From a virus, in the IMG/VR virus record IMGVR_UViG_3300037138_000245, positions 1 to 26,093 of that record: DNA of 26,093 nucleotides; one strand, given 5' to 3'. The notes below the pieces were generated by a model. That model saw only the letters and a list, made by a program, of their open reading frames with translations, ran no database searches and was not told where the DNA came from. A program made the translations under genes and the position numbers. This document shows positions 6,428 through 14,094 of this stretch, in pieces. Positions within the stretch are counted from its first letter, which is position 1; the number at the start of each line of letters is the position of its first letter.

Positions 6428-9400
6428 TTAAACCTCCTGCACGTCGAACATCAGGCGCGCAAACTCTTCCTCGATGAGGCGCACTTTCCAGGTGTCCTCG
6501 TCCTTCTTGAGGTTTTCCAGGTTGTTATCCCCATTCACGTAAATGAGGTCGAACTCCATGTCCTTCGTGTTGTAGCCTTGCTTCTGGAAGAATTCGTCCA
6601 GATTGGCGTTAGGGTTCTCCTCAAGGTTGCGCCAGATCACCAGGACCTTCTCGCCACCCGAATTGGTGCCGTGAACGACCCGGAAGCCGCGAATGGTATC
6701 GATGTGCTTCACGTGCAGCCCCAGCAGGTAGTTGAACGTTTCTACGAGATCTGCACTCGTCAGATCCGTCTCGCCGACCGTACCAGTAGAGACCTTGAGG
6801 GTGTAACTGAATGGCTCTCGGAACGCATCAATGTTCAATAGCGAGGCACTGCCCTTACTTTCGACGTCCAGCATATAACGGAGGTTATAGTCCTCTCGCA
6901 GACCTGCATTTGTTTCCAGGAGCGATCCCTGCACCTCCGTGCGCCGTAACTCGAGATTGTTCAGTGAGTCTTCATAGGATTCCAAACGGACGTACTTGAA
7001 CACATGACTGGACCCACGTCGAGACACGGGCGTACCGTCCTTCCAGTCGTCCGAATATATAACTTTCTTGACACGAGGTATCAATACCGTCTCGAAGTAG
7101 CCTGCCATCTCGACGCAGATGTACTTCATTCGAACTGAGGTCTGTCTTGCGACCTCAATGGCAGCCTGAACCGTGCTTCCCGAACCCGCAAAAAAATCCA
7201 GCACCAGCGAGTCCGGCGCACTGCCGAAGGATATCAGCCGTTTCAGAAGTTGAGGGGGCTTGGGATTGTCAAAAAGGTCCGAGCCCTTTCCAAATAGCGC
7301 ACTGAGCGCATATGCTCCAAGGCGGCCATCGAGGTCTATCACGCTTCGAAGTGAATCTTGGTAGTCCTTCAGATAGAGCTTGATCTGAACGATGCGGTTC
7401 TCGTCTGGTCCGTAAATGAGTCTGTCCTTGTCAATGTACTCACGCTTCATCGTGCTTTCTGGAAACCGATACCCATTGGCGGGCTTCCGCATTGGGCGCC
7501 CGGTTTCACGGTGGAGAATCTCGAAATCATATCCATTCGGATGCGGATTGTGAACACTCTGAGATCCTGTATAGACGCCGTCCTCGTCGACGAATTTATA
7601 GCGGTCCACCTCGGCTAGAATGTCCTCGTTATCCTTGATGAAGGTCCTGATCCCATCTTGTATTTCGCTCATCGCCAAGCCAGCTTCCTTCAATCTCTGA
7701 TACTCCGCCTGAAGTAGCTCTTTTGCGTCCGCGAAGGAATTCTTCCAAATTGGTTCCACAAAAGCTGCATCCTTCGCGTAACACACAACATACTCATGCT
7801 CGACGGCAATTTGGGTTGGGTTGTTATCCCTCGCGTTGCGCCAGACAATATCGCCGATGTGGTTCCCGACGCCAAATACTTCGTTTAACAGAAGCTGGAG
7901 ACGAGGTAGTTCGTTAGTGTCGATGGACGAGAAAAACACGCCATCCGAACGAAGTAACTGCCGGCCCAGGCTGATACGGTCCGCAATCATCGAAAGCCAT
8001 GAGCCGTGCTTGTAGCCATCTTTGTAGGGAAAGATGTCCTTCTTTGTGTTATAGGGCGGATCAATGTAGATAGTCTTGGCTGCTCCACGATAAGAATTCA
8101 ATAGAGTAGACAGCGCTTGAAAACTATCAGCCTGCACCAGAAGCCCATCGGTAGCGTCATCGATATCGGCCAGTTTCGGCGAAGACAGCAAGCGATCCTT
8201 GAACTCTTTCCCAAAATGTCGCGTGTCGAGGACCAGGGTCGGCTGCGAGCGGAGGAACTCAGCGGTAGGAGGAACGGAGAATCCTGGCTCCGCAAAGTCA
8301 CCGTGAATGAGGTCGAGCCGAAAAAGACGGACCCACTCATCCACTTGTGACGCATTGACGGCGATCTCACCGTAGAGCTCCTCTGGCACTCGGTCGAGAG
8401 TCATGCAATAGTTTGATTCCACTACGAATTTCTTCTTCAGCCACAGCTTCTTTTGAAAGTCTTCCAATTGCGCCACAAAGTCAATCAGCTTAGTGGCGAG
8501 GTTCCGTAGAACCCGTATGCGTGAAAGGTACTGCTCTACTCTCGGCGCCGACGATGATTCGACATCGTCGAGATGCATCACCTCGTTCTTGATGAAAAAA
8601 TCGAGCTCCCGGCGAAGGAAGGAACCCACATTCTTATGGATGAAATAGTCGAAGGTATTCCGTGCTGTGTAGTCCTTCAGGTGCTTTGTGAGAACTGTGC
8701 GGTTCGGATCAGCCTCGGAGGGATCGAGAGCGGCCAATGCAAACAGCCATGCCGCCGTTGCTGGGGCTTCGAAAATGGCCTTTGTCGCGTTCGCGTTGAG
8801 CGCATCCTGCCGACGCTTCTCTGCATCCGGTCTGAATTCGAACCGGATCACCAACTCACCATTCTCCTCGGCGACGGTGTCCCCCTCAGCCAAAATGAAA
8901 CGTCGGTCATTGCCATTGGCGGGTTTGTTGTTGTCCTTTTCGGTGTCGGCGGCAGCCAGTCGAAAATGGACTCGTCTTCCATCTGAGAGCTTGAAAGCGT
9001 AGTCACGCAGGTATTCGCTGCTCTTGATGTAGTACTGATCGTGGTTTGCCCAGTAGAGCTTCACCTCTTCCCCTTCGTAGGGAATCGCATAAACGCCTTC
9101 TTTGTAGCGCCGAAGCGACAGAAAGTCCCCCTCGTTGTAGTACCGACGGAAGAAGTTGAACAGATCAGAGAAGACCTGGTTCTCCAGGGCAGATAGGTCG
9201 ACGGCGGTCGACAGTTTCTCGCGAAGCTCCTTCACCTTTGGCGACAACTCGGGATCGACGCCCGCGTCCTTCAGTTGCTGAACCAGCTTGTCAAGGTCAG
9301 TCTTCAACTGGACCGAGTCGCTCGACTTGTACTGCGAGAACGCCTCCTTGATTTGCGGCAGGAGATCGTTGTCCAGGAAACGCTCGATTTCTGAGCGCTT

Positions 9401-9519: not shown

Positions 9520-12405
9520 CTACTCCACCTTCCAACGGATGGTGAAAATCGTCTCACGCTGCGTTCGCTGCGTCATGCGCTCTTCCAGCTTCGTGATCAG
9601 CCGGTCGCGCTTGTCCTTCACTTCATCTTCGAGGTCGAAAATCCGCTGGCGTTGCCGCCGTTGTTCCTTCTCTGCCCCGCGGATGTCATTTTGAATCCTA
9701 AGCTGTTCCTCGGTCGTCGTCGTCAGCCGGGCAGCGCGGTTCAGTCCTTTGATTCGAGCTTTGGTGTCAGCCAGTTCCCGCTCCGCGGCGATGATCTGAT
9801 CGTCCGCCCACTTCTCCAGGCGTTCACGCTCCTCCTGGAAATGCTTGTTGTTCGTCTCCAGCGAGCGGCTAATGGTCGCGGCCGTGTGGCGTTCAGCTTC
9901 CCGGCTAAGCGGCGGCAGTACTTCGGCGGCGACACCGCCCGCAACAACAGCGGCTTCACAGTGGAAGAGCTTTTCGCAAGTCTCCTGGTCAAGCGCCCTG
10001 CCGTCGTCCGTCAAGCCGGAGAAGAGAAGATACTCTTCGCGCTCGAACGAATCGATTGCCAGACGATTGAGCACAAGAATGCCGGACTTGCCCTTGAGGT
10101 TCTCCACCACCCGTATGCGCACGGGATGGCCGGTAATCCGGAAGCTCAGAGTGGCCTCTGGCGTGGGGCACGCCTTCGCTGCGTCGATGGCATGCTCGCC
10201 CAAAGGGTGCGAGATCCGGTAGAGAAATTCTCCATCGATGTTTTGGTGCGTCTTCGAGATCAGATGGTAGCGGCCGGGCTTGACGTCCGGTCGCGGCGTA
10301 TGGCGCAAATCGAAGGCCAGGGTTGCGTCGTCGAAGGTGGCAAGGTCGCCAAGGATGAACTTCGACAGTTGCCAGAACATGCGGCCAACCCAATCGAGGC
10401 GTTGGCGGGTTTCGTCAAGTTGGACCCGGAGCCGGTCGTGAACGTCCTCATCGAAGTTCTCCAAGAGCTTTCGTCTCGTATCGACGAGACGGCTTTGGAT
10501 AGCTTCTTCCATTTCGGTTTGCAACTTCAGGAAGGCCGCGTCGATTTGTTCGGGGGTGCGGCAGGTCTGGTAGATGGCGAAGACACGTTTCTCGAAATCG
10601 ACGCCGGATTCGAGGGTGCCCAGTATGTCGTCGCTGGCGCCGAAGACGCCGGAAAAGAGATTGAACTTCTCGTTGAGGAGCTGGAAGACTCGCTTGTCCG
10701 CTTCATTCCGCTCGTTGAGGAAATTGATGACCACCACATCATGCTTCTGGCCGTACCGATGACAGCGCCCAATGCGTTGCTCGATTCGCTGAGGGTTCCA
10801 GGGCAGGTCGTAGTTGATGACGAGCGAACAAAATTGGAGATTGATGCCTTCCGCGGCAGACTCGGTCGCGATGAGAATCTCTGCGTGATCCCGGAAGTGC
10901 TCTATCAGAGCCAGGCGCTTGTCGGCCAACTTGGAGCCACTGAGCCGCCCCAACGGTGAATTCAGGCGCTCCCATTCCTGGTAGATGCGGTCTACGTCAG
11001 GGCCGGTATTCGTCCCGTTAAACAGCACGATTCTCCCGCCGTAGCCGTTGGCTTCCAGGAAGTTGCGCAGGTACTCCTGCGTGCGGCGAGACTCCGTGAA
11101 GACGACGGCCTTGCGCAGTGCCCCGATTTTCTCCATCTCATCGAAGCCGATCTGCAGTGCCGTGAGGAGCGCGCGGGTCTTTGCGTCGATTTGGATGGAT
11201 CGGGCCCACTGCACGAAGCGGTCGAGTTCAGCGATTTCGGAGTCCAGCTTCTTCAGGTCGACCGGCGCGGGCGATGCGGGTGGATCGCAAGCCGGGATGT
11301 CGCCGCCGTTCGCGGGCTCGTCCAGTAGCTCAGCATTCAGTTCATCTTCTTCGATCAGTTTCTCTGCCAAGCCCTCGCCTTCAGGCAAAGCCGAACCAGC
11401 GTGGGAGCGCGCTTTGAGATCCAACAGGCGTTGGCGGATCATTTCGAGCGTACCTGCCACGGCCTGGGAACTGGAGGACAGCAGCTTGCGCAAAATCATC
11501 GTCGTCAGTTCTCGCTGACGACGCGGAATGGAGTAGGTGTCATCCCTACGCAGGAACGCGGAAACGGCTTCGTAGAGTTGCTGTTCGGAGTCGGCGGGCG
11601 TAAACGGGCGCGTAATCGGCCGGCGCTCGGTGTATTTCACGTACTCCAGGACTTGGCTTCGCAGCGTCCGGTAGCAGAACGAACGAAGACGGTCCTTCAA
11701 GCCGTCCAGGTCTCCGTCCTTCGAACAGTATTGCGTTCGGAAGGCGGTCAGGTCGCCGAACAGATGCTCGTCGATCAGGGTAGAGAGGCCGTAGAGTTCC
11801 AGCAATGAGTTCTGCAGGGGGGTGGCGGTCAGAAGCAACTTCCTGCGGTCCGCGATGGCTGAGCGGATGGCTTGGCCCATCTTGTTGCTTGTGCGGTATG
11901 CACCTCGGAGCTTGTGGGCCTCATCGATTACGACGAGATCCCACGGCACGAGTTGCACCTCACTTGCCATGCGGCTGGCGAAGTTCATGGAAACGATGAC
12001 GACTCCATGGCCGGCGAAGGGTGCCGCGCTCCCTTCACGGATGGCCTCCCGGTATGACGCCGAATCGAGGATGATGCTGGGAAGATGGAACTTCTCCGAG
12101 AGTTCCATGCTCCACTGTTTGCGGAGAGATGCGGGGCAAATGACTAGCAACTTCCGGCGACGCTCGGCCCAACACTGGCACAGCACCAGGCCCGCCTCGA
12201 TGGTCTTGCCGAGGCCGACTTCATCGGCCAGCAGCACGCCTTTCGATAGAGGCGACCGGAAAGCGAACAGCGCGGCCTCAATTTGGTAGGGGTTAAGATC
12301 GACGGCGGCATCGAACAGGGAAACCGACAGCTTCTCCACACCGTCCGTTCCGGACCGGCGGGTCAATTCGTTGCCGAAATACTTTGCATGGTAGCTGGTC
12401 GACAC
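9520..12405 (-). CDS. SNF2/RapA-type DEAH helicase of the defence operon
   Basis: This 961-residue ATPase is predicted to translocate on double-stranded DNA. The SNF2 motifs are visible. Motif Q is NPYQIEAALFAF, Walker A is DEVGLGKT (61-68), Walker B is VVIDEAHKLRG (DEAH at 161-164), and motif III is LLTATPLQNS. The C-terminal RecA lobe contains AVVFTESRRTQEYL, ATESAAEGINLQF, and motif VI IEQRIGRCHRYGQ (about 538-550). A charged coiled coil fills about 830-940. GTG 12405 is used as the start, with AAGGA close upstream. Related SNF2 proteins occur as DrmD in class 1 DISARM and beside other methyltransferase systems, but the partners here differ. The gene lies 178 bases downstream of the SSB-tip gene and 20 bases before the methyltransferase gene. 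Confidence 0.92.
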   Translation of the reverse strand: MSTSYHAKYFGNELTRRSGTDGVEKLSVSLFDAAVDLNPYQIEAALFAFRSPLSKGVLLADEVGLGKTIEAGLVLCQCWAERRRKLLVICPASLRKQWSMELSEKFHLPSIILDSASYREAIREGSAAPFAGHGVVIVSMNFASRMASEVQLVPWDLVVIDEAHKLRGAYRTSNKMGQAIRSAIADRRKLLLTATPLQNSLLELYGLSTLIDEHLFGDLTAFRTQYCSKDGDLDGLKDRLRSFCYRTLRSQVLEYVKYTERRPITRPFTPADSEQQLYEAVSAFLRRDDTYSIPRRQRELTTMILRKLLSSSSQAVAGTLEMIRQRLLDLKARSHAGSALPEGEGLAEKLIEEDELNAELLDEPANGGDIPACDPPASPAPVDLKKLDSEIAELDRFVQWARSIQIDAKTRALLTALQIGFDEMEKIGALRKAVVFTESRRTQEYLRNFLEANGYGGRIVLFNGTNTGPDVDRIYQEWERLNSPLGRLSGSKLADKRLALIEHFRDHAEILIATESAAEGINLQFCSLVINYDLPWNPQRIEQRIGRCHRYGQKHDVVVINFLNERNEADKRVFQLLNEKFNLFSGVFGASDDILGTLESGVDFEKRVFAIYQTCRTPEQIDAAFLKLQTEMEEAIQSRLVDTRRKLLENFDEDVHDRLRVQLDETRQRLDWVGRMFWQLSKFILGDLATFDDATLAFDLRHTPRPDVKPGRYHLISKTHQNIDGEFLYRISHPLGEHAIDAAKACPTPEATLSFRITGHPVRIRVVENLKGKSGILVLNRLAIDSFEREEYLLFSGLTDDGRALDQETCEKLFHCEAAVVAGGVAAEVLPPLSREAERHTAATISRSLETNNKHFQEERERLEKWADDQIIAAERELADTKARIKGLNRAARLTTTTEEQLRIQNDIRGAEKEQRRQRQRIFDLEDEVKDKRDRLITKLEERMTQRTQRETIFTIRWKVE

Positions 12406-12583
12406 GTATCCTTACTCAGGCCGGCGCAGCACAGCGCGACCGTGCGCCATCTTTTCCCGTAAATGACCATTGTCGATCATTGATGGCTTCTCCGTGTAGT
12501 CGTCCGTGAAATACGGTGGCTGCCTTCAGTTGCCCAACGACTGGGATACCTGACGCCGTCGCTGAGCCCTGTCGAGCAGGGTC

Positions 12584-13135
12584 TTAAAACGGGACGTCGT
12601 CATCTGAAATTCCCGGCGCGTCCTCGACGTTCCCGTCTGCTGTTTCCTCGGCGGGAAGATTTCCAAAACCCTCGGGCGGTTCTTCAACCGGGGGCATCTC
12701 GTTGTGGTTCAGCTCAAGCAGTCCGAACGTATTGGGTGCGGGCCGAGTAAAGATCTCCCCGCGTTTCGCGTAGCCACCGAGAGATCCGCTCAGCGACACC
12801 CTATTGCTCTTGTCAACAGGCCGGCCAATCGCTTTAAGGATCTCAGTGACGTGGAGCGGCTTGTTGACCTTGAGAATCGCCTCCCGAGACTTGGCGACGG
12901 CACTGCCAGGTCGCAAGGTCTGTTCGGGCGCGAGTTTCTCGGGAGTAGCCTCCTTGGGGAGCAACCGGATGGAGTCCTGAAGCGCTTGAAGGTACGCGTG
13001 GGCCGCCGCTTGCTGCAGCTCAAGCTCTCGAATCTCCTGCTGCTTCTTTTCAATGCGTTTCAGAATCTCTTCGCGAATTCGCATGACGGGGTGGACCAAG
13101 TTCCCATCATAGCCGCATAGGGGGCAGATCGTCAA
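12584..13135 (-). CDS. Zinc-knuckle, coiled-coil, HARE-HTH-like protein with an SSB-type acidic tip
   Basis: This 183-residue protein opens the defence operon. Visible parts are: a CPLCGYDG knuckle at 4-11, which could bind zinc as a dimer because only two Cys are present; a charged coiled coil at about 19-55; and a winged-helix segment at about 77-142 (SREAILKVNKPLHVTEILKA ... GGYAKRGEIFTR). The winged helix resembles HARE-HTH, a domain found with restriction and chromatin proteins. An acidic, Pro/Glu-rich tail ends SDDDVPF. The tail closely resembles the C-terminal tip of bacterial SSB (DDDIPF), which docks repair and replication enzymes. I infer an adaptor or sensor role. The start is TTG 13135 with no good ribosome binding site; ATG at 13084 would lose the knuckle. 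A short hairpin (ccctg/caggg, 12567-12580) lies just after the stop. Confidence 0.75.
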   Translation of the reverse strand: MTICPLCGYDGNLVHPVMRIREEILKRIEKKQQEIRELELQQAAAHAYLQALQDSIRLLPKEATPEKLAPEQTLRPGSAVAKSREAILKVNKPLHVTEILKAIGRPVDKSNRVSLSGSLGGYAKRGEIFTRPAPNTFGLLELNHNEMPPVEEPPEGFGNLPAEETADGNVEDAPGISDDDVPF

Positions 13136-13221: not shown

Positions 13222-14094
13222 TTGGACCCAGATAAAGAGCTGCTTATCAATCGTTTGGAGTCCTGCAAGCGGATTTCGCCGCGCGGGGTGGAATATTGGA
13301 TGGCTCGGGACCTCCAGCCTCTTCTCGGCTACTCCAGATGGGAAAACTTCGCGAATGTCATTGAGAAGGCGAAGATGGCGTGTGAAAGCGCTGGGGCCCC
13401 CCCATCCGATCAGTTTCGTGACATCACGAAGGGGATAGCCGCGGGCAAGGGCGCAGAGATCCAACGAGTGGATTTCTATCTTTCCCGCTATGCCTGCTAC
13501 TTAATCGCCATGAACGGCGACCCGGCCAAATCGGAGATCGGCCAAGCCCAGACCTACTTCGCGGTCCAAACCCGCCGCCAAGAGGTTCAGGACCAGGACC
13601 CGGAACAGCGCATCGAACTGCGCCAACGGGTCAAGGAGGCGAACCGCAACCTCAATTCGGCAGCAAAAGGCGTCGGCGTGCAGAACTACGGGCTATTTCA
13701 CGACGCAGGATATCGTGGCCTGTACGGCATGGGGCTCACCGATCTCAAAGTCCACAAGAGAATCCCTCCCACAGACGACCTCCTCGACCGGGCCGGCCGC
13801 ACCGAATTGGCCGCCAATGAGTTCCGGATTACGCAGGCGGAAGACAAACTGCGCCGCGAGAACGTAAAGGGGGAGAGTGCGGCGATCAACACCCACCGCG
13901 AGGTAGGACAGGCGGTGCGGACCACGATCCAGAAGCTCGGCGGAAAGTTGCCAGAAGATCTTCCGCCCCAGCCGTCAATCAAGCGGCTGTCCGCAAAGCA
14001 CCGCGCGAAGCCTATCGCTGGCGGCAAGAAGCAGTCATTGGCGCTTCTTCCGGCTGCGCGCATAGAGGAAACCAGTACCAAGGTGGAGGACTGA
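13222..14094 (+). CDS. dinD: DNA damage-inducible protein D (BRO-N family)
   Basis: This 290-residue protein has the DinD organisation. A BRO-N-like N-terminal domain includes GVEYWMARDLQPLLGYSRWENF, DITKG, and VDFYLSRYACYLIAMNGD with KSEIGQAQTYFAVQTRRQE. A helical half follows with NYGLFHDAGYRGLYGMGLTDLK and AANEFRITQAEDKLRRE. E. coli DinD is SOS-induced, similar in length (about 275 residues) and has been reported to inhibit RecA filament activities. The start is TTG 13222 with GGAG 7 bases upstream. The next gene starts immediately after the stop (TGA then ATG). Its position divergent from the defence operon suggests that a DNA-damage response and restriction are linked here, but that is inference. 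The C-terminal 50 residues are Lys/Ala-rich and may be disordered. Confidence 0.92.
   Translation: MDPDKELLINRLESCKRISPRGVEYWMARDLQPLLGYSRWENFANVIEKAKMACESAGAPPSDQFRDITKGIAAGKGAEIQRVDFYLSRYACYLIAMNGDPAKSEIGQAQTYFAVQTRRQEVQDQDPEQRIELRQRVKEANRNLNSAAKGVGVQNYGLFHDAGYRGLYGMGLTDLKVHKRIPPTDDLLDRAGRTELAANEFRITQAEDKLRRENVKGESAAINTHREVGQAVRTTIQKLGGKLPEDLPPQPSIKRLSAKHRAKPIAGGKKQSLALLPAARIEETSTKVED

Follow-up and report, generated by a model that had tools for sequence, protein, structure and literature searches.

A DinD-associated phage protein with a candidate mimic of the host SSB C-terminal tip

The locus and its closest described counterparts

In bacteria, the proteins of genome maintenance dock chiefly at the C-terminal tip of SSB. 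The pockets that receive this tip (SSB-Ct) bury its terminal Phe, hold the carboxylate, and contact the Asp residues, and binding is weakened or lost when the Phe is removed or the Pro altered (PMC10164576). The phage gene described here, X, encodes a protein that resembles bacterial SSB at this end, in that an acidic run followed by a hydrophobic residue, Pro, and Phe closes a disordered tail, and the host-specific variants of the SSB-Ct (DDDVPF and DDDEVPF) equal those of X. SSB itself is an OB-fold tetramer, whereas the carrier X is a coiled-coil/winged-helix protein. The winged helix resembles HARE-HTH (PF05066; prototype, the N-terminal domain of RNA polymerase delta) by weak profile and fold similarity, but the architecture differs and the protein analysed here lies under clear significance.

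A second counterpart is DinD, since the gene divergent from X exceeds the curated cutoff of that family (NF008573; PADLOC PDC-S13). DinD appears among the regulators of RecA filaments in PMC4457935 (citing Uranga 2011). The same source (PMC4457935) names PsiB as a RecA regulator. Like PsiB and other RecA modulators of mobile elements, X comes from a mobile element and is predicted to work on the RecA/SSB axis, and no sequence relation between PsiB and X is claimed. No SSB-Ct mimic is known for PsiB, nor is an X partner known for the DinD of E. coli.

The window, meaning the whole stretch of DNA analysed, is a 26-kb virus record (26,093 nucleotides) with phage replication and packaging genes. 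Its features around X are the following.

12584..13084, minus strand: gene X, 166 aa; homologues align from the ATG at 13084, and the promoter overlaps a longer TTG start
13106..13135, minus strand: promoter of X, TTGACG (13135-13130), an 18-base spacer, and TATGAT (13111-13106), with equal spacing in homologous loci
12962..13081, minus strand: predicted N-terminal coiled-coil helix, residues 2-41 (AlphaFold2, pLDDT mostly >80)
12707..12901, minus strand: HARE-HTH-like winged-helix domain, residues 62-126 (AlphaFold2 model; weak Foldseek and PF05066 matches)
12587..12706, minus strand: disordered acidic tail, residues 127-166 (pLDDT mostly low; length and sequence vary among homologues)
12587..12613, minus strand: SSB-Ct-like tip GISDDDVPF, the peptide constant and synonymous codons variable in six clade members
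13222..14094, plus strand: DinD homologue with a BRO-N domain, the divergent partner of X (NF008573, PF02498, PDLC04919)

An earlier note on this DNA had read a longer form of X, the minus-strand open reading frame 12584-13135 that starts at a TTG, and had seen a Cys knuckle in it. Homology among the X relatives starts only at the ATG at 13084. A promoter pattern, TTGAC[GT], 18 bases, and TAT[AG][CA]T, is kept in five loci (window, L096, L097, L098, and L174) with the ATG of X close behind, and in the four homologous loci it reads TTGACT/TATACT at the spacing of the window. The conservation of both boxes at equal position, with the ATG close behind, indicates that the TTG belongs to the -35 box, which puts the CxxC residues ahead of the point where the X transcript probably starts. 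The Cys knuckle was rejected as a false N terminus, upstream of the promoter and missing from homologues.

Read from the ATG, X is a probable dimeric coiled-coil/winged-helix DNA-binding protein. The AlphaFold2 model, made from seven homologues, has a mean pLDDT of 74.7, and "coiled coil," as X was first described, is fair wording for its long helix at residues 2 to 41. The description of the winged helix as HARE-HTH-like is tentatively upheld: Foldseek matches of the model are winged helices, including the N-terminal domain of RNA polymerase delta, all weak, and PF05066 gives a weak match in six of seven family members (best E, 0.0046), the window X itself having no PF05066 entry in its own match list. 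An OB fold was not found in the window X, as PF00436 is unmatched, and the model of helix, winged helix, and low-confidence tail bears out the original statement on this point. A sequence search matched X to no solved structure. Among defence proteins its sole match, a very weak one, was to QatB (E, 0.012), and CPL, HECT_2, and other weak Pfam matches were set aside as coiled-coil noise.

The partner at 13222-14094 scores 307.6 bits against NF008573 (NCBI cutoff, 242) and is a member of the DinD family; it also matches PF02498 and PDLC04919 (E, 5.7e-98) and is the PADLOC phage-defence candidate PDC-S13. X had been called a defence protein, a label that we do not retain, because X is no fixed part of a restriction-modification (R-M) operon and only its DinD partner is a PADLOC candidate. 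Searches with X itself (tblastn against plasmids and phages and single-sequence scans) gave no homologue. A scan with the DinD protein led to five viral contigs, each with an X homologue divergent from DinD, and an X profile led to a sixth, L109, and afterwards to X-DinD pairs in Acidobacteriota. In this collection, reached solely via the DinD neighbour and afterwards by profile, a DinD homologue is divergently adjacent to X in all 18 X loci (phages and Acidobacteriota genomes); the DinD match of L142 is a fragment close to the contig end, and L109 has a truncated dinD (L109:3576-3911) beside a terminase gene. Small winged-helix proteins from another phylum and elsewhere (L147-L152 and L179-L184) have the winged helix and an NTF motif in common with X, lack the tip, and were excluded from the family.

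A profile search of 398 genomes from the phylum to which a Chromatiaceae MAG belongs turned up no X, and in a separate 200-genome sample of Pseudomonadota 27 DinD matches had no detectable X within ~1.5 kb. X is an extra component observed in Acidobacteriota and their phages. Several genome copies consist of X-DinD alone among ordinary genes, and we regard X and DinD as a two-gene mobile module. One X locus, L239, sits in a genome from the same order as a Bryobacteraceae MAG, which makes Bryobacterales (Acidobacteriota) the probable host group.

The tip in the X family and in host SSB

As first noticed, the open reading frame 12584-13135 ends in GISDDDVPF behind an acidic low-complexity tail, and the elements of an SSB-Ct tip, namely, acidic residues, Pro, and a terminal Phe at the stop, can be recognized in the sequence of the window X. 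The earlier note had proposed aligning homologues to see whether the terminal Pro-Phe is conserved, and the alignment gave a divided answer. An acidic-hydrophobic-Pro-Phe end is present in 9 of 18 X proteins (window, L096, L097, L098, L174, L109, L141, L177, and L178), L176 ends in EDDVPW, and 8 of the 18 are without any tip, including L175, which ends in EEPDFPL. These eight indicate that the tip is an optional module, inessential to the X family and to the X-DinD module.

In the six members of the window's clade DDDVPF is constant, although most tip codons differ synonymously and three kinds of stop codon are used, and the tail from the conserved FG motif to the tip varies in length and sequence. 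On this pattern of codon change, the tip in the clade is under purifying selection. Tips outside the clade fall into two groups (L141 and L177/L178). A core-domain tree calls for some four gains or losses of the tip, of which starred branches force two or more, and L141, which has a tip, is the fully supported sister of L192, which has none.

In 120 Bryobacterales genomes the pattern [DE]3-[IMV]-P-F-stop occurs 145 times versus 5 times in the reversed control, or ~1.2 times per genome, mainly in SSB. Every single-hit locus checked (30 of 30) was SSB, and the tip open reading frames fetched from multi-match genomes comprised 24 SSBs, 1 X fragment, and 17 others: DUF669 (5), HerA (2), kinase-like (2), TIR-like/nucleoside-deoxyribosyltransferase-like (2), Abi_C, and unknown proteins, with two of the 17 being short and probably due to chance. 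The tip is therefore uncommon in proteins other than SSB, and for half of a single family to carry it is far from chance. Judged by its sequence, the DDDVPF tip of the window is real and exceeds chance.

The ends of X can be set beside those of SSB genome by genome. The X of G472 ends in AMDDDDEVPF and its own SSB in QMEDDDEVPF, with the SSB of the related genome G1262 ending in AMDDDDEVPF; the corresponding X and SSB ends are GLTDDDVPF and GVTDDDVPF in G1212 and SEEDVPF and TDDDVPF in G1028 and G1032. The viral X of L096 ends in GITDDDVPF, the exact SSB end of G010, G1028, G1130, and G1146. For 14 non-SSB tip proteins (4 X mixed with other families, DUF669 excluded, kinship ignored), comparison of the tip with the SSB of the same genome gave 89 identities versus 77 ± 3 when shuffled (p ~0.0006); the lineage match for X itself comes from only 4 X genomes with a tip and a known SSB. 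The idea of SSB mimicry has thus gained ground through purifying selection, occurrence in several lineages, and likeness to host SSB.

The reading that we favour, with moderate confidence, is that X carries a host-matched SSB-Ct mimic by which X and DinD would dock on repair proteins that interact with SSB and so modulate RecA; the tip suggests that X plugs into the host DNA-repair hub. X likely regulates the divergent promoter region common to X and dinD and acts with DinD, and its disordered tail would present the mimic. The tip would then dock in the SSB-Ct pockets of RecO, PriA, RecG, RecQ, ExoI, and other host repair and replication proteins, RecO being a possible partner that would place DinD or X where RecA is loaded. 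Docking may bring X/DinD to SSB-coated single-stranded DNA, or it may compete with SSB for partners. The most likely outcome would be altered RecA loading, recombination, or SOS in phage replication or lysogeny, which we propose because E. coli DinD is a RecA-filament regulator. An X-DinD complex and its effect on RecA are presumed here, with the function of DinD transferred from E. coli. One point against this reading is L109, where X retains its DDDVPF tip despite the truncated dinD. If mobile elements and defence genes do bear host-matched tips, the long-unclear role of DinD becomes testable jointly with its partner X.

The tip could instead serve as an intramolecular or within-module element, an alternative that we consider unlikely. 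A DNA-mimic acidic tail would bind the winged helix of X, or DinD, and tune DNA binding, and the resemblance to SSB would reflect convergence towards a tail that is acidic and capped by a hydrophobic residue. Autoinhibition of DNA-binding domains by acidic tails is common, and the tail is acidic in the tipless X relatives too. What such an element leaves unexplained is why the end is precisely Pro-Phe, why relatives associated with DinD have lost the tip, and a resemblance to SSB that reaches down to DDDEVPF versus DDDVPF, in genomes where the pattern is nearly confined to SSB.

The restriction cassette behind X and the tip codons

Downstream of X lie genes for a DrmD-like SNF2 helicase, a type III-like methyltransferase (Mod), and a Res-like protein. 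ARMADA/DISARM was rejected as an identity for this region, since ARMADA requires a YprA helicase, none was identified in the window, and only the SNF2 protein resembles DrmD.

X might be an accessory subunit or regulator of SNF2-Mod-Res, its tip bringing RecQ, RecG, or nucleases to restricted DNA. It is upstream of and co-directional with the cassette in the window and L239 (SNF2-Mod-Res) and in L096 (SNF2), and likewise in L097 (type I HsdM) and L098 (another SNF2-family helicase). However, these cassettes are mutually unrelated, and L239 and L097 share 80% identity across 6.4 kb that reaches the end of X, which indicates that X is phage backbone and that what follows it is a replaceable cassette. 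SNF2-Mod-Res is preceded by a leader of its own and is found without X. The viral contig L002 encodes an SNF2 protein 93% identical to that of the window and has no X; DNA similarity runs from SNF2 to 12487 and ends short of X, where L002 carries other genes. The available flanking DNA of the 80 closest SNF2 loci fetched from bacterial genomes contained no detectable X homologue, and several genomes have X and DinD alone. L002 and the 80 loci show X not to be part of the SNF2-Mod-Res system; with the swapping of the cassette behind X, they led us to reject X as an R-M subunit, and we hold the accessory role to be very improbable. The original link to restricted DNA is not supported, as X and the cassette each occur apart.

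Some further observations concern the cassette and its surroundings. The sole gap in DNA similarity to the methyltransferase gene of L002 lies inside Mod (window 6984-8361), as expected of an exchanged target-recognition region. About 80 bases upstream of SNF2 (window 12405-12487) are conserved with L002 and include an inverted repeat, AATGA-N9-TCATT, which may serve the SNF2-Mod-Res cassette as an operator. In L002, the slot of X-DinD upstream of SNF2 is taken by a five-gene cassette (L002:3896-9818) that includes an actin/Hsp70-like protein and is possibly another defence system.

The codons of the tip bear on a still less probable reading, in which recombination with host ssb, or chance, produced the tip and it is functionless. 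Some other proteins do match host ssb at almost all tip codons (9 of 10 in G1021). Over the last 10 codons, however, X and SSB differ at 4 in G472 and at 6 in G1212, and the six clade members keep the peptide through their synonymous differences and different stops. Least likely of all is a role of the tip in turnover, as a tag or C-terminal degradation signal; degrons can be formed by C-terminal residues, but this gives no reason for a match to host SSB, and SSB itself is abundant and stable.

SSB-like tips in other proteins

Docking through a host-matched SSB-Ct mimic, the reading preferred for X, may have parallels elsewhere. An unrelated family of 326-aa plasmid proteins has SSB-like tips (L005:7794-8774; L287, L288, L289:3001-3981; L290:1501-2481; L291-L293), ending in GDDIPF in E. 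coli, Klebsiella, and Kosakonia, TDDIPF in Agrobacterium, ADEVPF in Ensifer, DEIPF in Pseudorhodobacter, and NDEPPF in Rhodococcus; in actinobacterial SSBs the ending is generally DDEPPF. The E. coli member is WP_089576189.1. The gene lies beside vapBC in enteric plasmids, and the protein has no Pfam or PADLOC match and contains FGIQAKKGKL, a possible Mrr-like motif. In Bryobacterales, HerA, protein-kinase-like, TIR-like/nucleoside-deoxyribosyltransferase-like, and Abi_C proteins carry SSB-like tips (L247, L248, L258, L265, L267, L272, and L280), and one TIR-like protein has FSQGITDDDVPF in common with the host SSB.

The plasmid family and the HerA, kinase, TIR-like, and Abi_C cases suggest a general use of host-matched SSB tips. 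We see the case as evenly poised for a docking strategy in general use among proteins of mobile elements and of defence, in which unrelated families (X, HerA, kinases, TIR-like, Abi_C, and the plasmid protein) would each have acquired the tip of the local host to join the SSB hub at stalled or foreign forks. A literature search of incomplete coverage found no published report of SSB-Ct mimicry in phage defence or of such a general use. If such a strategy is real, the last nine residues would be a simple rule to find proteins acting at single-stranded DNA.

As a separate observation, DUF669 genes situated ~0.5 kb from ssb in L252, L270, L275, and L284 encode proteins that end in CDDDIPF, and the adjoining SSB ends in DDDVPF.
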